From: an uncultured Flavihumibacter sp.
GTDB taxonomy: Bacteria > Bacteroidota > Bacteroidia > Chitinophagales > Chitinophagaceae
Length of the DNA: 8,964 bases
Direction: 5' to 3'
Assembly (NCBI GenBank): GCA_946481605.1
Contig: CAMLPA010000114.1
Location: 1 to 8,964 of the forward strand
Of the stretch, positions 180 through 8,964 are shown piece by piece. How positions within the stretch are numbered: position 1 is the first letter of the stretch; every line of letters begins with the position of its first letter. Position numbers and translations under genes: made by a program. The notes beneath the pieces are model-generated. The model searched no databases, was not told the origin of the DNA, and worked only from the letters and a program-made list of their open reading frames with translations.

Positions 180-620
180 ATGTCAGCTAAACATTTCACT
201 TGCACGCTTGAAACCACACAGTCTCCGGAAAAAGTTTTTGAAGCGATAACGCAGGTCCGGGATTGGTGGGTAGGTTATTATGGGGAAGAAATTATGGGAG
301 AAACGGCGAAGCTGAACGACACCTTCAGCTTCCGGGCCGGAGAGGGCGCGCATTATAGTGAACATCGATTGGTTGAAGTGGTTCCCGGGGAAAAAATAGT
401 GTGGCTTACCACCAACAGTGATTTCAATTTCATTCAGCATAAAGAAGAATGGACCGGAACAAAAATCATTTTCGAGATTACAACAACGGGGGATAAAACC
501 AGACTTGTTTTTACACACGAAGGCCTTACGCCCGATGTTGAATGCTATAATGCCAGTTCACCTGCATGGACGCAGTATTTGCAACACAAGTTACTTCCGC
601 TGATCAATGCTGATCTTTGA
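180..620 (+). CDS. SRPBCC domain-containing protein (AHSA1/START-like)
   Basis: This is a 146-residue protein of the SRPBCC superfamily, whose helix-grip fold binds small hydrophobic ligands or, in AHSA1, the Hsp90 middle domain. Visible landmarks are the first helix with SPEKVFEAITQVRDWW (15-30), a beta-rich middle with GEKIVWLTT (70-78), WTGTKIIFEI (91-100), the LVFTHEGL strand (109-116) and a closing amphipathic helix from about residue 125. The length is normal for a single-domain family member, and no signal peptide or membrane segment is seen, so it should be cytoplasmic. The ATG at 180 is preceded by an A/T-rich stretch without a Shine-Dalgarno sequence. The gene is divergent from the AraC-like gene at 1-56 and converges with the efflux gene ending at 653. 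The ligand cannot be predicted; family membership is confident, function is not. Confidence 0.85.
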   Translation: MSAKHFTCTLETTQSPEKVFEAITQVRDWWVGYYGEEIMGETAKLNDTFSFRAGEGAHYSEHRLVEVVPGEKIVWLTTNSDFNFIQHKEEWTGTKIIFEITTTGDKTRLVFTHEGLTPDVECYNASSPAWTQYLQHKLLPLINADL

Positions 621-652: not shown

Positions 653-2176
653 TTATCCGGTTTTCTCGCCACCTACTTTTTTCAGCGCCACTACAACTAA
701 TGCCACAAGGAACAACACACTCACCCAGGCACTCACCTGCATTCCCGTGCCGAAGGCATTCTGCGCCGCGATAATAAGTGCCTTACCCTGCTCCGCCGGC
801 AATGCAGCGGCTTCGTTTACCGCGCCACCAAATGTTTCTATGGATTTTTCTGAAGCCTGAGCGGGAATAGATTCCTGGCTCATCAACCGTACATAAATAG
901 CCGTACCCAGACTTCCAAAAATGGCCATGCCCGTGGCGCCACCAAATTCAGCGCTGGTTTCAGAAATGGCGCTTGCGGAACCGGCCCTTTCAGGTGGAGC
1001 AGAACCCACTACCAGATCGGTGGCCAGGGTAACTACAGGCGCAAACCCTACCGAAGTGAGGAACATGGCGGCCACCACCATCCATACACTACTCTGGGCA
1101 TCAAGCTGCGCGATCACAACAAAGCCTGCGATAGCAAGGCAGAGTCCCAGTGCCATTAACTTACCTGGCGAAAACAGTTTAAGCATTTTCGGCCCTTGTG
1201 TTGCGCCGAGGATAAATCCCGTAAACGAGGGAAGGGCCCAGAGTCCTGCCGCAAGCGGTGATAAACCCAGCCCCAACTGCATGTATTGGTAGATAAAAAA
1301 GAACGAGCCAAACATCACAAAGCAACCCATCCCATAAATGGTGAGCGAGGCACTGAAAGCAGGTATCCGGAATAAACTGATGTCTATCAACGGATCACTG
1401 AGTTGCTTTTGTCTCCTGAAGAAGATGATTCCTGTGCATATCCCCACTGCGATAGAGGTTAACCATAGCCAGTTGAATCCGTTGGTGGCAATTTGTTTCA
1501 GTCCGAAAATAATCAGCAGTACCGCGATGAGGGACAGCAAGGCGCTTGCGAAATCAAGGCGTCGTGCGGAAGGGTCTTTGAACTCGGGGAGCAGATAAGG
1601 ACCTGTAATCAGCAGCAGCAACATCACGGGAATACCCACCAGGAAAACGGAGCCCCACCAGAAGTATTGCAGCATAACGCCGCCCACGATAGGACCCACC
1701 GCGCCACCTGCGGCATAGCCCATGGCCCATATCCCGATTGCTTTCGTGCGCTCTTCCGGATCCGGGAACATATTTCTGATCAGCGATAAAGTGGAAGGGG
1801 CAATGGTGGCACCTGCAATACCGAGTACCGCCCTGGCGAAGATGAGCATATTCGCTGATTGAGCGAAGGCTGCGAACAAAGAGGCCAATCCGAAAAAGGC
1901 CGCCCCAATCAGCAGCAGTTTACGCCTGCCGATCCTGTCGCCGAGGTTGCCCATGGTGATGAGGAAACCCGCTACGAGAAACCCGTAGATGTCCATGATC
2001 CAGAGGAGTTGGTTGCCGGTGGGTTGCAGGTCGGCGCTTAATTGAGGAACGGCCAGGTTCAGTACCGTGAGGTCCATGGAATAAAGCATACACGGCAGGG
2101 CAATCACGATGAGGCCGAGCCATTCCTTGCGGGTGGCTTTGGCTGGTGCGGAAGCCAGTATGGGTGCATTTTCCAT
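653..2176 (-). CDS. MFS transporter, DHA2 family (14-TMS drug:H+ antiporter, SmvA/QacA-like)
   Basis: This inner-membrane protein of 507 residues is predicted to expel cationic or lipophilic toxic compounds in exchange for protons. Family motifs are all present, numbered from the chosen ATG: motif D1-like MDLTVLNLAVP (34-44), LLWIMDIYGFLVAG (57-70), motif A GNLGDRIGRR (76-85), motif B RAVLGIAGATIAPSTL (115-130) and antiporter motif C GGAVGPIVGG (157-166). Hydrophobic segments continue to a helix ending near the C-terminal KKVGG, and the length is typical of the 14-helix DHA2 group. The MDLTVLNLAVP and WIMDIYGFLVAG signatures resemble SmvA/LfrA-type exporters of quaternary compounds; the actual substrate is unknown. 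The frame extends to a TTG at 2197, but the ATG at 2174-2176 is preferred because a good -7 box (2195-2202) lies just upstream and would overlap the longer start. The gene is alone in its transcription unit. Confidence 0.9.
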   Translation of the reverse strand: MENAPILASAPAKATRKEWLGLIVIALPCMLYSMDLTVLNLAVPQLSADLQPTGNQLLWIMDIYGFLVAGFLITMGNLGDRIGRRKLLLIGAAFFGLASLFAAFAQSANMLIFARAVLGIAGATIAPSTLSLIRNMFPDPEERTKAIGIWAMGYAAGGAVGPIVGGVMLQYFWWGSVFLVGIPVMLLLLITGPYLLPEFKDPSARRLDFASALLSLIAVLLIIFGLKQIATNGFNWLWLTSIAVGICTGIIFFRRQKQLSDPLIDISLFRIPAFSASLTIYGMGCFVMFGSFFFIYQYMQLGLGLSPLAAGLWALPSFTGFILGATQGPKMLKLFSPGKLMALGLCLAIAGFVVIAQLDAQSSVWMVVAAMFLTSVGFAPVVTLATDLVVGSAPPERAGSASAISETSAEFGGATGMAIFGSLGTAIYVRLMSQESIPAQASEKSIETFGGAVNEAAALPAEQGKALIIAAQNAFGTGMQVSAWVSVLFLVALVVVALKKVGGEKTG

Positions 2177-2194
2177 AAAATGGTTTTGTGGTAC

Positions 2195-2202
2195 CAAACT
2201 TA
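2195..2202 (-). promoter_or_regulatory. Putative Bacteroidota -7 box for the DHA2 efflux gene
   Basis: The reverse strand reads TAAGTTTG, a full match to the Bacteroidota sigma-ABfr consensus TAnnTTTG. It would start transcription about 12 bases before the ATG at 2176. No convincing TTG element is seen at the expected distance upstream, so this is a half-site prediction. Confidence 0.4.
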
Positions 2203-2307: not shown

Positions 2308-2333
2308 ATCATTCAACATCCATCATTCAACAT
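2308..2333. repeat. Short direct repeat, two copies of ATCATTCAACAT
   Basis: The 12-mer ATCATTCAACAT occurs at 2308-2319 and again at 2322-2333, a 14-base period with a two-base spacer. On the reverse strand the tract reads as TGTTGAA and TGATgga/aaa units in a 7-base rhythm, starting at the stop codon of the isomerase gene and ending before the terminator. It is non-coding and of unknown role. Confidence 0.6.
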
Positions 2334-2953
2334 TATCTCCCATTTGCCCTCAACACTGTAATGTTCTTCTTCACCCTGTCGTCATGGGTTTTTTTAATGA
2401 TATAGTGCCATTGTTTGTCCGATACATCCACGAAAAATACTTCTCCTGTTTTGTGTTCTGCCACTGCATCCTGGAATTCTTTGGGGAAGCTGTATTCACC
2501 AAAGAACCAGTCGGTATCGCCGCGGGTGGTATTGCCGTCCATCGTGTATTTGTCGGAGAGTTCAGCGAAAGAAACGCCTTCATTGGCTTTCTGCACGATC
2601 TCTTTTTTCAGTTTTTCGATTTCCGAAGGGGTGAGCGATCCACCATCGAGGAACACATAGCTGGCGCGGTAAGCCACGGAGCCAACGGCTTCCAGCACTT
2701 TATAGGTAACATATCCCACGGAGAAAACATCGCCCTGCTTCTGGCGGAGCAAACGTTTATCGATAAGCGTAGTGTCTTTATCTGCGGAAAGTTCGAGGAT
2801 AGCAGGCTTCAATTCCGGGTTATCCTTGATGAACTGCTGCGCCTGCTGCAGCGTGGTGATCTTTTTGAATTTCTCGGTAACGGTTTCCTGCGCGAAGATG
2901 GCGGTGGAAAAAAGAAGGAAGGCCATTACAAAACGGTATCTCATATTTTTCAT
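2333..2953 (-). CDS. Exported parvulin-type peptidyl-prolyl isomerase (PpiC-like)
   Basis: This 206-residue protein carries a signal peptide (basic MKNMRYR, hydrophobic 8-19, likely cleavage after AIFA-21), so it should act in the periplasm. A helical stretch (24-75) precedes a parvulin (rotamase) domain at about 95-190, a fold that catalyses cis-trans isomerisation of prolyl bonds during protein folding. Landmarks are RASYVFLDGG (96-105), EGVSFAELSDKYTMDGN (125-141), RGDTDWFFGEYSFPKEFQDA (144-163), KTGEVFFV (168-175) and WHYIIKKTHDDR (182-193). The two positions that usually hold catalytic histidines (RxxHIL and xHIIK) appear to carry Tyr99 and Tyr184, so it may be a weak enzyme or a binding domain. 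The start could also be Met4. The gene has its own putative promoter and a strong terminator, indicating a single-gene unit. Confidence 0.8.
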   Translation of the reverse strand: MKNMRYRFVMAFLLFSTAIFAQETVTEKFKKITTLQQAQQFIKDNPELKPAILELSADKDTTLIDKRLLRQKQGDVFSVGYVTYKVLEAVGSVAYRASYVFLDGGSLTPSEIEKLKKEIVQKANEGVSFAELSDKYTMDGNTTRGDTDWFFGEYSFPKEFQDAVAEHKTGEVFFVDVSDKQWHYIIKKTHDDRVKKNITVLRANGR

Positions 2954-2967
2954 TTTTTCTGTAGATG

Positions 2968-2997
2968 CAAAATTCCTACCTGAGGTTGATCGGACAA
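2968..2997 (-). promoter_or_regulatory. Putative Bacteroidota promoter of the isomerase gene
   Basis: On the reverse strand a TTG (2995-2997) is followed after exactly 19 bases by GAATTTTG (2968-2975), one mismatch from the TAnnTTTG -7 consensus. It lies 14 bases before the ATG at 2953. The spacing fits the Bacteroidota vegetative promoter; this is an inference from consensus only. Confidence 0.4.
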
Positions 2998-3064
2998 TGA
3001 AGTATCATGGAAGATAACATTTTTTTGGCGAAAAAGATCGGTGTTTCACCCCATGATTTCGTTA

Positions 3065-3862
3065 CTATTTCAGTTCCTTCAGTTGTATTCTTCTGAAATC
3101 GATGGGCTGTCCTTCACTCTGGAAGGCGATATACCCTTCTTTGAGCATTTTCCCGTTCAGCTTCTGCGTGGGGTCGAACCTGTTCACCACGCTGCCGCCA
3201 ATCTGTGGTTTACTGTAGGTTAATACTGTGTCGCCTTCTATGATGTGTTGCACCAGGGAATCGCCGTACACAATAAGTTCAGCCTTTACCCATTGCTCCG
3301 GGGGATAAGTTTTAGAAGAAGAATTGATGCAGTGGGTAGAATCCAGTTTTCCGTTATAAACAACGTGTGTACCGGGTGAACACATATTGCCCGTGGGCCT
3401 GGGTTTGCCATCGGGCAGGCCGGCCAGCAACTGCATTTCCACGGATATCGGCCAGTCCTGTTCTTTGGGCATGGTGCGCGGATCCTGGGAATGGAACATG
3501 ATGCCGCTGTTCAGGATGGTATAGGAAGGAGCGTCCTTCCGCCAGTCGCTGGTGAACTTATATTCGAATTTGAGGTGGAAGCTGGAGAGCGGTTTCTTGT
3601 AATAAAGATGACCATACCTTTCGTTGAAGGTATCGTATTGGTCATACCTTACTTCGAGCACGGAATCTTCGGTAATGCGGAAAGTATTGCCATAGTTATC
3701 ACCGGTTTCATGGTGGTGAATCTTTACCATCCAGTCTTTGAGGTCTTTTCCGTTCAGCAGGTCCTGCCATCCGGCCTGTTGGTTTTGAATGGGGGGCTTG
3801 CAGGAAAACAACACCAGTAGAGCGCTGAGCGAAAGGGTCATGTTGCGAACAATCGATTGCAT
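3065..3862 (-). CDS. DUF1080 (3-keto-disaccharide hydrolase domain) lipoprotein
   Basis: This 265-residue protein starts with a lipoprotein signal peptide: hydrophobic LSALLVLFSC with the lipobox cysteine at residue 21, so it is probably anchored to a membrane facing the periplasm. The rest is one DUF1080 domain, a concanavalin-like beta sandwich: WQDLLNGKDLKDW (32-44), NSGIMFHSQDP (118-128), WPISVEMQLLAG (137-148) and a closing GYIAFQSEG...IDFRRIQLKEL. Members of this family have been linked to hydrolysis of 3-keto-glycosides formed by periplasmic glycoside 3-oxidoreductases, so carbohydrate breakdown is the likely role; the substrate is unknown. No partner oxidoreductase is present in the window. 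The ATG at 3862 gives the best signal peptide; Met8 is possible but loses the basic residue. The gene is divergent from the large CHAT gene and 111 bases upstream of the isomerase gene. Confidence 0.88.
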   Translation of the reverse strand: MQSIVRNMTLSLSALLVLFSCKPPIQNQQAGWQDLLNGKDLKDWMVKIHHHETGDNYGNTFRITEDSVLEVRYDQYDTFNERYGHLYYKKPLSSFHLKFEYKFTSDWRKDAPSYTILNSGIMFHSQDPRTMPKEQDWPISVEMQLLAGLPDGKPRPTGNMCSPGTHVVYNGKLDSTHCINSSSKTYPPEQWVKAELIVYGDSLVQHIIEGDTVLTYSKPQIGGSVVNRFDPTQKLNGKMLKEGYIAFQSEGQPIDFRRIQLKELK

Positions 3863-3882
3863 ATCAAAAAGTTTTTCAACCT

Positions 3883-3912
3883 GTAATTTATCTTCCTTTT
3901 TCCGTTCAGCAA
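3883..3912 (-). promoter_or_regulatory. Putative promoter of the DUF1080 gene
   Basis: On the reverse strand a TTG (3910-3912) is followed after 19 bases by TAAATTAC (3883-3890), which matches four of the six fixed positions of the TAnnTTTG -7 box. It sits 20 bases before the ATG at 3862. The weak -7 match keeps confidence low. Confidence 0.3.
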
Positions 3913-4015
3913 GTATTCAGCGTCGGCATTTAAAATTTTCCTAATATTATGTCCCTTTTCTTTCCGCAAGGGCGCTCTGGTTAGTCTGCATATTCTTCAT
4001 AATCAATTTATACTC

Positions 4016-7000
4016 ATGAACGGGTTGAACATTGTTATAAGAGGGCATAAGCAGGCGCCCGCAGTGGCCACCAATGCAGGCGATGTATTGGAACTGGAAG
4101 CGTCTTACACAATTACCGGGGTTTCCCGCGGCGATGCCTCCGCCCATAAGATCACACTGAACAGGGAGAAATTACTCGAGTTTGTTTTTGAAGATGAAAC
4201 CACCTGGATGTGCAGCGATGCATCTATCCATGAACTGTTTCCTGAACTGGATGCGCCTGGCGTGGCTTCGGCTGTACGTGGCGGCGATGGGGCATTCGAA
4301 ATACCTGCGGCGTTAAAGGCGCCGGGAGCGGAACGCGGACTGATCACCAACGTGGCCATTAAACTCATCAATGTATTCGCGAAAAAGAAGATAGGCATCA
4401 CCGTTGAAAAAGCCGCCCGCAATTATGAGCTGAAAAACCTGGGCAATGTGGTCGGACTTTTTAAAGTAGATACCGGTTTTCATTTGCACGAGTTCCGTGC
4501 GCCGGAGGCGGGGAAGCCGGTGCTGTTGCTGATCCATGGAACAGCGTCTTCCGTATGGGGTTGCTTTGGCGGAATGAAAAATACAGAACTCTGGAAATAC
4601 CTCTGCCAAACCTATGGTAACAATATTTACGCTTTTCAGCATGAAACGCTGAGTAAAAGTCCGCTGGACAATATCCGCGAACTGGTTGGGTTGTTGCCTT
4701 CCAACCTGCACCTGCACATCATTACACATTCACGCGGCGGATTGCTGGGAGATGTACTCTCCAGGTTCACCGATTCTGATGCGGGGAAAAATGGCTTTAC
4801 AGATGAGGAACTTGCTTTGCTGGAGAAAGAAAAACGACATGCGGACCTGCGTAACATTGAGGCGATAACTAAGTTGATGGCGGGGAAACAACTGCGCGTA
4901 GAGCGTTTTATCCGTGTTGCCTGTCCGGCCGCAGGAACAATACTGGCTTCCAAACGACTGGATATTTATTTTAATGTGATCGCCAACTTAACAGGGTTGT
5001 TAACCGGTTCACTGGCCAACCCGCTGTTCACGGCCTTTCGCGAGCTGATCGCCTCGGTGATTGATACGAAAGATGACAGCGATGTATTACCGGGCATTGA
5101 AGCCATGAACCCGGAATCGCCGTTTTTGAAAGTGCTGAATAACCCATCTACGTCAGCGCCATTGAACAATCAATTGGTGGTGGTAGCCGGTAACTGTGGA
5201 TTGAACTTCAGTATGAAGGCGTTGAAGATACTTGCCGTTCGCCTGTTTTTCCTGGAAGCCAACGACCTTGTGGTGAACAGCGATTCGATGTACCTGGGGG
5301 CCAAAAGGAAATTACCGGTTCAGTATTTCTTTGATGATGCCGATGATGTGGACCACTTCAGCTATTTCCGGAATAAAAAAACAGGTCAGGCCATGGTGCG
5401 CGCCTTCCAAACCCAGCCCGATAAGCCTGTGCCCGGGTTTTCACTCTTCAACAGTCCCAGTTCGGAAGAGGCCCTCCGCAATGCGTTGTTTAACCCCGAA
5501 GGCGGTGAACTTTTCCCTGATGAAATCACGGGAAAAAGACCGATCGCCGTATTGTTGCCCGGAATCATGGGTTCCAATATTGGTCCTAAGGAAGACCTGC
5601 TCTGGATCAATTACTGGAAGTTCATTAAGGGTGGGTTAAAAGACCTGAACAACCTGGAGGAATACACCGCAACTTCAGTGGTGAAAACCTCGTATAAAAA
5701 ACTGAAAGATGAACTCTCCGCGAAATATGATGTGGAAACCTTCCATTTCGACTGGCGCCGTCCGCTAACCGAAGTGGCCGCTATCTTCAACGAAAGAATA
5801 AAACAACTGATGGCCTTCGGCCAGCCGATCAAACTGATTGGTCACTCCATGGGCGGTGTGGTGGTCCGTGATTTTATGGTGAACCACCGCGAAACCTGGG
5901 AGCAGCTCAATAACTCCACGGGCTTCCGGCTTATATTTCTGGGATCCCCGCTGGGCGGCTCTTTCAGAATTCCCTACGTATTATTCGGGAAAGATTCCAT
6001 CATCAAGAAACTCGCGATGATCGATATGCGCCACAGTAAAAAGGAGCTGCTGCGTGTGTTTTCAGGGATGCAGGGGTTGTTAAGTTTACTTCCACTTGAT
6101 AAAAACAACCCGGAAAATGATTTCGGCAACGGAGAAACCTGGCGACAAATGGCACTTGCAGCAGGCGATGCCACCTGGCCACTTCCCCCAGCCAATGCGA
6201 TTAAAGCGTTTGCAGATTACCGTGATGATATGACGGAACTTTCAGCAGATGACTTTAAGAACGCCGCTTACATCGCCGGGAAAGACAAGTCCACACCTTG
6301 CGGTTATCGCATCGCAAACGGACAACTCGTGTTCCTCAGTACCGCCGAAGGCGACCAGAGTGTTACCTGGGAAACAGGTATCCCCGCTTTAATGACTTCA
6401 GCTAACAATGTTTATTATGTGAATGTGTCCCATGGTGCGCTGGCCAACGAACCGTCTATGTTCAAAGGCATCAGTGAAATCCTTGAAGCGGGTACCACTA
6501 ACCTTTTGAGTAAGAAGCGACCGGTGGTGCGCGGGGAAGAAAAAGTATTCCGTACACCCGAAGTGCACGATTTCGATACATCCATGATAGGACTGGAAAA
6601 AACACTGCTGGGGTTGGGCGGTGAAACCACCGGGATAGAGCGCGGTGAAACACCGATCAGGGTATGGGTAAGTAACGGAGATCTTTGTTATGCCGCAAAC
6701 CCGGTGTTGGCGGGTCACTTTGAAGATGACGGCGTATTGTATGCAGAATCTTATATGGATGCGCTGCTGGATGGCGCTTTGCGGAAGCGGCACCAACTTG
6801 GATTATATCCTGGAAAAATCGGTACCAGCGAAGTATTCCTGCCTGATGCAGGTCGCTTTACCGGCGCAATTATAACCGGTTTGGGAAAACCCGGTACATT
6901 AACGGCGCACCAGCTCACGCTTACCGTAGAGCAGGGGGTCACCAATTATTTACTCGGCTTCAACAGCGGTCTGGAGCGTAGCCAGAAAAAAACGGATGGT

Positions 7001-8964
7001 TCAGGTATTTCTTCCCTCATTATAGGGTGCGGATATGGCGGACTGAGTGTGGAGAATTCCATCCGCGCGATCTTACAGGGCGTTCAGAATGCCAATGTAA
7101 AAATGGCCAAATTGTATGGAACCCATTGCCGGATGGTGGAAGACGTAGAATTTGTGGAGAAGGACCACAGCCGCGCACTCGGATGTTTCTATTCACTTGC
7201 GCGGATAGAACAGGAGCGCAACCGCTGGCTCAACATCACTTTACCTGAGAAAAAGATCAGGCTCCTGCTGGGCAGAACCAAAAGAATACCGCACGATGCC
7301 AGCGAGGAATGGTGGAACCGCATCACCGTTAGGCAATATAGTATGGAGCCTTTGGAAAGAAAGGCCATCAGCAGCCTGCATTTCAGCGCCTCCACCGGAG
7401 GGGCGAGGGAGGAGGTTCGGGTACTGCATTGCAGCACTGGAATCATTGATGAACTGGTGAACAATATTTCCACCAGCAATGAATGGACACCACAACGTGC
7501 CAAGACCATCTTCGAATTGCTTATTCCCAATGACTTTAAAGAACAACTGAAAAGGCAGTGTCATATCTCCTGGATATTGGATAAGGAAACAGCGGCCTAT
7601 CCCTGGGAGTTGCTGCAGGATTCGATACAGCATGCAAAACCATTGTGCATCAGTGCTGGTATGATCCGGCAGTTGGCTACGGAGCAATACCGGACCATTA
7701 TCAACCCTGCGGTGAAGAATAATGTCCTGATTATTGCCGAACCTCAGCTTCAGGGTGCTGCCCCGGCGCTTCCCGCCGCAAAAGAAGAGGGGCTGCAGGT
7801 AGCGGATATATTGAAGGAGAACGGGTACGAAACAAACCTGGTGGCGGAAGGCACGGCCCCGGAAATAATCCAGGCTTTATACGAAGACGATTACCGTATT
7901 ATCCACCTGGCGGGACACGGTTTTTTCAACGAACAGGAACCGGAAAATTCCGGCATGATGATCGGTCAGAATGTCTATCTCTCCACCCGTGAAATCGCCC
8001 AGATGAGTGTGGTCCCCGAGTTGGTGGTGGTGAACTGCTGTTTCCTGGGCAAAACTTCCGGAGCCTCCGAAGCGCTGTACAATAAAAGATACCGGCTGGC
8101 CGCCAACATAGGCACACAACTGATTGAAAATGGCGTGAAAGCCGTGGTGGCCGCAGGATGGGCTGTGAACGATGCAGCAGCGCAGGAGTTTACCAATGTG
8201 TTCTACAAACATCTCTTCGATGGGTACAACTTCGGAGAAGCGGTGCTGGAAGCACGAAAGGCTGTTTTCACGCAGTTTCCCGGAACGAACACCTGGGGCG
8301 CGTATCAATGCTATGGTGATCCGTTCTTCAAATTGAAAGCGAACGGGCCTTCAAAGAAAGAAACCCGTCCGTTGTCGTACGTTATTTCGGAAGAAGCGGA
8401 ATACGACCTGTTCAACCTGCTGAATGAACTGGAGATGGGCAACCGGCCGGTAGCTGAATACAACCAAAAACTGGTCGCCATCATGGATGCCGTTGACCGC
8501 GCGGGCATCAGGAATGCGGAGATCACCGAAAAAGAAGCATGGGTGCTCACTGAACTCGCGAGCTTTGATGAGGCCATCGTTAAATACGAGCAGTTGCTCA
8601 GAATGGAAAAAGCGCTTTTCACTTTCCTCAGTATGGAAAGGTATTGCGATATCAGGGGCAGAAAATTGTTACGCGATCTTCAGCGGAAAGTCATTACTGC
8701 GGCCCAGGCGGAAGAAGGCATCCTCCGCGTGATTGCCGACCTGGCGGTACTGATCAACGCCGGTGGTACAGCAGAGCGGTTCGGACTTCTGGCGCGCACT
8801 TACAAAAGAAAAGCGCTCATGACCAACCAGGCCGCAGCCCGGACAAAACTCTTGGAAAAAGCCGCGGCGCTTTGTTACCAGGCATACCAGGTAGCAGGAA
8901 AAGGAGAAAACATGTATGCGCTTACCGCATGGTTGGAAATGGAAAGCGTGCTGGTATTGGTGCA
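4016..8964 (+). CDS. Giant multidomain protein: two alpha/beta hydrolases, macro/M17-like module, CHAT protease, TPR-like C-terminus (3' end outside window)
   Basis: The frame is open from 4016 to the window edge: 1,649 codons and two bases, no stop. No signal peptide or membrane helix is seen, so it should be cytoplasmic. Residues 1-165 are a family-specific N-terminal segment. An alpha/beta hydrolase follows (about 165-455) with LIHGTASS (172-179), nucleophile elbow HSRGG (Ser239), VACPAAGT (301-308), Asp417 and His447. A second, LCAT/lipase-like hydrolase (505-815) has LLPGIMGSNI (513-522), FHFDWRRP (576-583), GHSMGG (Ser611), GSPLGG (643-648), GDQSVTW (Asp780) and SHG (His806). Residues 880-1090 resemble an M17 aminopeptidase N-terminal, macro-like domain (LGLYPGKIGTSEVFLP, 928-943). 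A CHAT caspase-like protease spans 1135-1440: PWELL (1196-1200), HLAGHG (His1301), NCC (Cys1342), YGDP (1433-1436). From 1450 the protein is alpha-helical, TPR-like. ATG 4016 is the first in-frame ATG after an upstream TAA at 3884. Defence or regulated cell death is plausible but inferred. Confidence 0.92.
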   Translation, partial: MNGLNIVIRGHKQAPAVATNAGDVLELEASYTITGVSRGDASAHKITLNREKLLEFVFEDETTWMCSDASIHELFPELDAPGVASAVRGGDGAFEIPAALKAPGAERGLITNVAIKLINVFAKKKIGITVEKAARNYELKNLGNVVGLFKVDTGFHLHEFRAPEAGKPVLLLIHGTASSVWGCFGGMKNTELWKYLCQTYGNNIYAFQHETLSKSPLDNIRELVGLLPSNLHLHIITHSRGGLLGDVLSRFTDSDAGKNGFTDEELALLEKEKRHADLRNIEAITKLMAGKQLRVERFIRVACPAAGTILASKRLDIYFNVIANLTGLLTGSLANPLFTAFRELIASVIDTKDDSDVLPGIEAMNPESPFLKVLNNPSTSAPLNNQLVVVAGNCGLNFSMKALKILAVRLFFLEANDLVVNSDSMYLGAKRKLPVQYFFDDADDVDHFSYFRNKKTGQAMVRAFQTQPDKPVPGFSLFNSPSSEEALRNALFNPEGGELFPDEITGKRPIAVLLPGIMGSNIGPKEDLLWINYWKFIKGGLKDLNNLEEYTATSVVKTSYKKLKDELSAKYDVETFHFDWRRPLTEVAAIFNERIKQLMAFGQPIKLIGHSMGGVVVRDFMVNHRETWEQLNNSTGFRLIFLGSPLGGSFRIPYVLFGKDSIIKKLAMIDMRHSKKELLRVFSGMQGLLSLLPLDKNNPENDFGNGETWRQMALAAGDATWPLPPANAIKAFADYRDDMTELSADDFKNAAYIAGKDKSTPCGYRIANGQLVFLSTAEGDQSVTWETGIPALMTSANNVYYVNVSHGALANEPSMFKGISEILEAGTTNLLSKKRPVVRGEEKVFRTPEVHDFDTSMIGLEKTLLGLGGETTGIERGETPIRVWVSNGDLCYAANPVLAGHFEDDGVLYAESYMDALLDGALRKRHQLGLYPGKIGTSEVFLPDAGRFTGAIITGLGKPGTLTAHQLTLTVEQGVTNYLLGFNSGLERSQKKTDGSGISSLIIGCGYGGLSVENSIRAILQGVQNANVKMAKLYGTHCRMVEDVEFVEKDHSRALGCFYSLARIEQERNRWLNITLPEKKIRLLLGRTKRIPHDASEEWWNRITVRQYSMEPLERKAISSLHFSASTGGAREEVRVLHCSTGIIDELVNNISTSNEWTPQRAKTIFELLIPNDFKEQLKRQCHISWILDKETAAYPWELLQDSIQHAKPLCISAGMIRQLATEQYRTIINPAVKNNVLIIAEPQLQGAAPALPAAKEEGLQVADILKENGYETNLVAEGTAPEIIQALYEDDYRIIHLAGHGFFNEQEPENSGMMIGQNVYLSTREIAQMSVVPELVVVNCCFLGKTSGASEALYNKRYRLAANIGTQLIENGVKAVVAAGWAVNDAAAQEFTNVFYKHLFDGYNFGEAVLEARKAVFTQFPGTNTWGAYQCYGDPFFKLKANGPSKKETRPLSYVISEEAEYDLFNLLNELEMGNRPVAEYNQKLVAIMDAVDRAGIRNAEITEKEAWVLTELASFDEAIVKYEQLLRMEKALFTFLSMERYCDIRGRKLLRDLQRKVITAAQAEEGILRVIADLAVLINAGGTAERFGLLARTYKRKALMTNQAAARTKLLEKAAALCYQAYQVAGKGENMYALTAWLEMESVLVLV

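Follow-up and report, generated by a model that had tools for sequence, protein, structure and literature searches.

What kind of protein is encoded by the long open reading frame (ORF) at the right-hand end of contig CAMLPA010000114.1 from an uncultured Flavihumibacter sp., and what might it do for the cell that carries it? The window, by which we mean the whole 8,964-nucleotide stretch of DNA analysed, contains a frame that begins with an ATG at position 4016 on the + strand and stays open up to the window's end, for 1,649 codons. The closest protein among the best 120 of 713 relatives, P0001, is 1,819 residues long and 96% identical across the whole query, which would place around 170 residues at the end of the tail outside the window. 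We find that the gene encodes a conserved accessory protein, composed of known parts in an order of which we found no description, and that it is kin to caspase-hydrolase effector systems. Our favored reading, a tentative one to which we assign a probability of about 0.42, is that the protein is a latent, cytosolic, single-polypeptide effector in which sensing would free a CHAT protease, the protease would cut, lipases would attack the membrane, and the cell would stop.

A Pfam scan detected, above curated cut-offs and in order from the N- to the C-terminus, DUF7379, LCAT, CHAT, and TPR-S. The full order is a beta-rich N-terminal domain, hydrolase 1, hydrolase 2, a linker, a peptidase-M17-N/macro-like domain, the CHAT domain, and the TPR-S tail. 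An AlphaFold model of residues 1-852 reached a mean predicted local distance difference test score of 86.7, with several blocks within the N-terminal domain scoring lower, and hydropathy revealed neither a signal-peptide-like nor a membrane-helix-like stretch near the N-terminus. Hydrolase 1 matches PF24096 (DUF7379) with 109.3 bits against a cut-off of 33 and carries a Ser-Asp-His triad, which places it in that family; hydrolase 2 agrees with the LCAT/lysosomal phospholipase A2 (LPLA2) family (PF02450) in profile, fold, and triad. The CHAT domain matches PF12770 with 109.7 bits against a cut-off of 24 and has the His-Cys dyad, and this profile was matched in 41 of 41 members at E-values up to 1. 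The tail matches the TPR-S profile (PF20308) and folds like the central regulatory region of ASK1. An earlier note, made from the letters of the window alone, had described an unbroken frame of at least 1,649 codons with two Ser-Asp-His hydrolase triads, a macro/M17-like module, a CHAT His-Cys dyad, and a helical repeat tail; this anatomy was confirmed in every part, and the tail is now identified as TPR-S. In an open-licence library of papers, we found no description of this domain architecture, no mention of DUF7379, and no joint mention of TPR-S, CHAT, and an effector-associated domain. We also considered an active M17 aminopeptidase and rejected it given that no catalytic part is seen after the M17-N-like domain: the M17 catalytic domain gave no profile match in the scan of the query or among 25 of the 42 families found across relatives, and the next domain is CHAT.

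None of the eight predicted catalytic residues (S239, D417, H447, S611, D780, H806, H1301, and C1342) varies among the 120 full-length relatives analyzed, the best 120 of 713, including the 37 of them that make up alignment A1. The full-length proteobacterial relatives at loci L035, L040, L042, and L049, as well as the split copy at L047, retain all eight at identities of only about 28-31%. We next compared the window with a related genome, G051, whose DNA is 91.6% identical over positions 2517-8961, upstream genes included, and whose protein is 99% identical to P0001 over residues 1-1819. The eight catalytic residues are the same in both, and the nonsynonymous rate (dN) was 0.0175 against a synonymous rate (dS) of 0.47, giving a dN/dS of 0.037, with values of 0.018-0.085 across six domain stretches. 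The gene is thus real, constrained, and under strong purifying selection. Interrupted copies also occur, one with an internal TAA (G218, L088) and one lying in two frames (G421:C34:50744-56153).

The two hydrolases differ in how consistently they are retained. Thirteen relatives, picked because LCAT was absent from their listed domains, fill at most 50 of the 331 hydrolase-2 columns, while S239, D417, H1301, and C1342 are retained in all 13, with H447 falling in an alignment gap in six. At L037 (401-5782), the sole exception among the aligned loci, the hydrolase 2 serine and histidine are replaced (S611G, H806Y), whereas the hydrolase 1 triad and the CHAT residues are kept. The alignments thus indicate that hydrolase 1 and CHAT are the constant pair and that hydrolase 2 is an optional module, missing or apparently dead in some relatives. 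Outside the family, CHAT or Peptidase_C14 is also present in 34 of the 42 weakest listed matches to the hydrolase half (P0313-P0354), a figure to be read as an indication, not a rate, because the search tool restricts the lengths of candidates. Among partial relatives of this half, P0295 is listed with a TssF domain, which may reflect a real fusion or an assembly join. P0060 and P0071 have a longer N-terminus with two extra listed domains, PF03366 and PF20305, which we take to be YEATS-type (YEATS/pYEATS).

Features of the gene, its product, and the upstream genes in the window
Feature	Residues	Position	Strand	Remark
Protein-coding gene, 5' 1,649 codons		4016..8962	+	Runs off window; full length about 1,819 residues
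N-terminal beta-rich domain	1-125	4016..4390	+	AlphaFold model, no family assigned
Alpha/beta hydrolase 1 (DUF7379)	about 146-471	4451..5428	+	PF24096
Nucleophile	S239	4730..4732	+	Invariant, 120/120; role assigned from motif and position
Hydrolase 1 aspartate	D417	5264-5266	+	Role from motif and position
Hydrolase 1 histidine	H447	5354-5356	+	Role from motif and position
Alpha/beta hydrolase 2, LPLA2/LCAT-like	about 506-829	5531..6502	+	
Nucleophile	S611	5846..5848	+	Invariant, 120/120; lost in L037
Hydrolase 2 aspartate	D780	6353-6355	+	120/120
Hydrolase 2 histidine	H806	6431-6433	+	120/120; lost in L037
Linker	831-884	6506..6667	+	Proposed cut region
Peptidase-M17-N/macro-like domain	about 885-1075	6668..7240	+	Structure model made on L001
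CHAT caspase-like protease domain	1162-1435	7499..8320	+	PF12770
CHAT catalytic histidine	H1301	7916..7918	+	120/120
CHAT catalytic cysteine	C1342	8039..8041	+	120/120
Helical tail	from 1441	8336..8962	+	Continues beyond window
TPR-S match	1517-1637	8564-8926	+	PF20308
AHSA1-type gene		180-620	+	Upstream in window; ordinary
MFS efflux transporter		653-2197	-	Upstream in window; ordinary
PPIC-type isomerase		2333-2953	-	Upstream in window; ordinary
3-keto-disaccharide hydrolase		3065-3862	-	Upstream in window; ordinary

Having established the anatomy, we analyzed the distribution of the gene, counting matches at an E-value of 1e-50. In the family of Parafilimonas terrae (G003, L005), 34 of 394 genomes, an even draw from a larger group, carry the gene, a few matches being partial; in the genus Aequorivita, to which locus L007 belongs, 14 of 28 genomes do. 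Of 14 genomes examined in full, 13 have a single copy each, and the remaining genome has the split pair at L047. Searching genome contigs with an alignment as the query yielded at least 66 loci (a single-sequence scan gave no match), and among the matches listed, those covering most of the protein are from Bacteroidota and from beta- and gammaproteobacteria. Matches were found in 13 of 72,556 plasmid records, including those of Paracoccus, Azotobacter, Ensifer, and Rhizobium, and four of them cover at least 80% of the query. A phage source was rejected (none of 50,697 phage records matched). Given this patchy spread in Bacteroidota and Proteobacteria and the presence/absence pattern at one Aequorivita site described below, the gene is accessory, not core. 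The earlier note had set core genes in conserved housekeeping contexts as the case against its proposal; the counts for the two groups led us to reject a core housekeeping role, but the neighbors that were identified are largely ordinary.

The Aequorivita genomes allow the insertion to be compared with its empty site. The biotin-carrier gene F3 adjoins the gene in all 14 carriers, and in 12 of the 14 non-carriers F3 is adjoined by F8, the left neighbor. In the regions fetched, the gap between F8 and F3 measures 5.9-6.1 kilobases in 11 carriers and 53-118 base pairs (bp) in 10 non-carriers, and at L007 it contains no further ORF of at least 90 residues besides the gene. We built flanking-gene trees with regions from 25 of the 28 genomes, 22 of which entered the tree of seven flanking genes. 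In that tree, the pattern of presence requires four changes, three of them forced by starred branches, and a single carrier clade is rejected (quick tree; approximately unbiased (AU) test, p = 0.00057). Taken alone, the F4 tree is compatible with the insert having arisen once (AU p = 0.213), F4 and F5 together speak against it (AU p = 0.024), and the value for five upstream genes (AU p = 5.6e-43) is probably inflated by an odd F13 shared by L133 and L152. The F3 protein itself splits perfectly by gene presence (L099-L126, L132-L156): over its first 90 columns identity is 0.35-0.48 between groups versus 0.59-0.74 within groups, while over the last 80 columns likeness between groups equals that within groups (0.82-0.87). 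Such a two-part pattern is what exchange through homologous recombination would produce if the tract ended within F3; co-adaptation of F3 may be an alternative. From these sequence comparisons, the unit that is gained or lost thus seems to be this gene plus some flanking sequence, with no partner gene.

We surveyed neighbors at 32 of the at least 66 loci, considering ORFs of at least 100 residues away from contig ends and called with a simple longest-frame script, which may miss short or unusual genes. A same-strand ORF lies within 60 bp upstream in three of the 32 loci and downstream in four; 25 have none on either side, some loci ending near the gene. This isolation and the fixed-site presence or absence in Aequorivita lend support to the term 'self-contained' used in the earlier note. 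No neighbor family recurs in more than seven of 50 loci, nor does any small neighbor. Across 113 neighbors, the 25 families listed out of 146 Pfam families found have one to six matches each: acetyltransferases six, receiver domains four, and the rest, mostly metabolic or regulatory families, one to three. PADLOC matches among neighbors include DpdE, ZorD, and DrmD, for which the SNF2-type helicase encoded 10 bp downstream of the gene at L002 (15105-19127, Chitinophaga sp. YR573) is a likely source. At L025, from Spirosoma arboris, the gene is flanked on one side by a TIR-nSTAND1-LRR gene (6320-9838) and on the other, past one other ORF, by an LRR-Roc-COR-TIR gene (16780-20289). Five of the 13 plasmid matches were examined for neighborhood, one lacking annotation; a type I restriction system and a recombinase lie near the Azotobacter copy. 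On the Paracoccus plasmids (L127 8679-11963, L129 6679-9963, L131 6279-9524), a protein of 1,081-1,094 residues is encoded directly upstream, with a 37-bp gap to or a 4-bp overlap with the gene. It shows 48% identity between two species, an SBP_bac_3 match above cut-off in one of them, and long hydrophobic stretches by eye, and is a possible sensor partner. A protein of 1,206 residues, whose receiver and PKD matches are weak and fall short of the cut-off, is encoded 9 bp upstream in Chitinophaga tropicalis (L003 6362-9982); BLAST found it unrelated to the Paracoccus protein.

How does this protein compare with known systems? In VMAP systems, according to a 2020 article (PMC7159879), a caspase domain is always accompanied by an alpha/beta-hydrolase gene, and the two are proposed to operate together. 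The protein described here resembles the MoxR-vWA-VMAP systems of that article in pairing a caspase-superfamily protease with an alpha/beta hydrolase; whereas those systems use separate genes, here one chain contains two hydrolases together with M17-N-like and TPR-S parts. No MoxR, vWA, or VMAP gene is present among the four upstream genes of the window. The type III-E TPR-CHAT protein (Csx29, of Craspase) likewise combines a CHAT fold with helical repeats within one chain, but it is not known to contain lipases and its TPR precedes CHAT, which matches at the end of the chain, whereas here CHAT is followed by TPR-S. No gRAMP/Cas7-11 gene was found among the same four upstream genes or among 25 of the 61 families matched by the 113 neighbors, and the models listed as matching the genes of the window include no CRISPR effector. 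In the SAVED-CHAT protease, whose fold also matched, CHAT is fused to a SAVED part that reads a ligand; M17-N/macro-like and TPR-S parts take the place of SAVED here, and SAVED-CHAT has no lipases. The best PADLOC match, the CHAT-type BovA (E-value 8.8e-8), which we take to belong to the Borvo system, is limited to the CHAT part (profile positions 530-666 of 711), short of a full-length match. Hydrolase 2 has the fold and Ser-Asp-His arrangement of LPLA2 and LCAT, which are eukaryotic enzymes that carry neither a protease nor a sensor. ASK1, which shares the fold of the tail, is an animal kinase, in contrast to the protease-lipase chain found here. Burroughs and Aravind reportedly predicted in 2020 that TPR-S is a scaffold for reading NAD-derived signals and that the ASK system of animals acquired it; the ASK1-like fold match fits the second of these predictions. 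The available portion of PMC9503650 contained no statement on TPR-S among those on TPR.

In the effector mechanism that we favor, sensing would fall to the TPR-S tail together with the M17-N/macro-like domain, which would respond to a small molecule, perhaps NAD-derived, or to a partner protein. The signal would free the CHAT protease, which would cut its own chain, most simply at the flexible linker around residues 831-884, and perhaps other proteins too. The cut would set free hydrolase 1, along with the LPLA2-like hydrolase 2 in proteins that have it; the freed enzymes would then degrade the phospholipids of the membrane and bring the cell to a halt, as an abortive, anti-phage-like defense or another self-limiting stress response. 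For related systems, a constant caspase domain has been proposed to mediate activation as an autopeptidase (PMC8195603). We place the cut at the linker because P836, R839, F845, and D854 are invariant in the 37 nearer relatives although parts of the linker are modelled at low confidence, and because L047 is split there: its hydrolase half (9692-12388) and its M17-N/CHAT/TPR half (12349-15051) are two overlapping ORFs, a possible assembly frame error. Three pairs of N- and C-terminal pieces (P0142/P0263, P0146/P0269, P0186/P0241) have longest contigs of matching length within each pair (66267, 471293, and 19003, respectively), and further split or broken copies therefore probably exist. A more specific scheme is conceivable but doubtful: an infection signal would be read by the ASK1-like TPR-S sensor together with a macro-like pocket, the linker would be cleaved by CHAT, and the two lipases would dissolve the membrane in a gasdermin-free lytic death, all within a one-gene cassette exchanged between strains.

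Several observations weigh against the effector mechanism. The identifiable neighbors are mostly ordinary, metabolic, or regulatory, so the case for defense rests on anatomy and distribution and not on neighbors; each of the 25 PADLOC families listed out of 61 with a match has one or two matches among the 113 neighbors, raw counts with no control set. Half of the Aequorivita species hold the gene at a fixed place beside metabolic genes, the phage records searched hold no copy, and the linker motif is not retained in the more distant L024, L032 (partly), L037, L040, L042, and L049. The ordinary neighbors would suit a role outside defense, with a scaffolded lipase pair that regulates membrane lipids or the envelope and is tuned by CHAT proteolysis upon changes in metabolism or envelope stress, as would the closely spaced upstream proteins in Paracoccus, with its solute-binding match, and in Chitinophaga tropicalis, with its weak receiver and PKD matches. 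We consider such a regulator unlikely, given the patchy spread, the presence or absence at one site, and the lack of a common partner, the two upstream proteins being unrelated and neighbor families recurring in at most seven of 50 loci.

That the linker motif is not universal speaks in favor of a scheme of parallel targets, in which CHAT cuts another protein and no cleavage sets the lipases free. Type III-E TPR-CHAT cuts Csx30, and TPR-CHAT complexes are among the closest protease structures; the two ORFs of L047, if not a frame error, suggest that the covalent link may not always be required. By contrast, no recurrent neighbor in the 50 loci is fit to be a substrate and the fusion is retained in the 120 listed full-length relatives, and we therefore regard parallel targets as rather improbable. 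An antibacterial lipase toxin that is secreted or injected, which the two lipase-like units might suggest, is very improbable: the N-terminus has no stretch resembling a signal peptide or membrane helix by hydropathy, no small neighbor recurs, and we know of no secreted or injected lipase toxin with a CHAT protease and a TPR-S tail.

To our knowledge, the targets of the CHAT proteases characterized to date are separate partners. In the protein described here, the protease shares its chain with two lipases, the presumed executioners, and with an ASK1-fold tail, and every active site is retained across a wide range of evolutionary distances. Should the order of sensing, cutting, and lipolysis prove true, this protein would provide a compact, testable model of how a protease can trigger membrane death in bacteria. 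It would also allow the question of what TPR-S, a relative of the ASK1 regulatory region, senses to be addressed in a bacterium.
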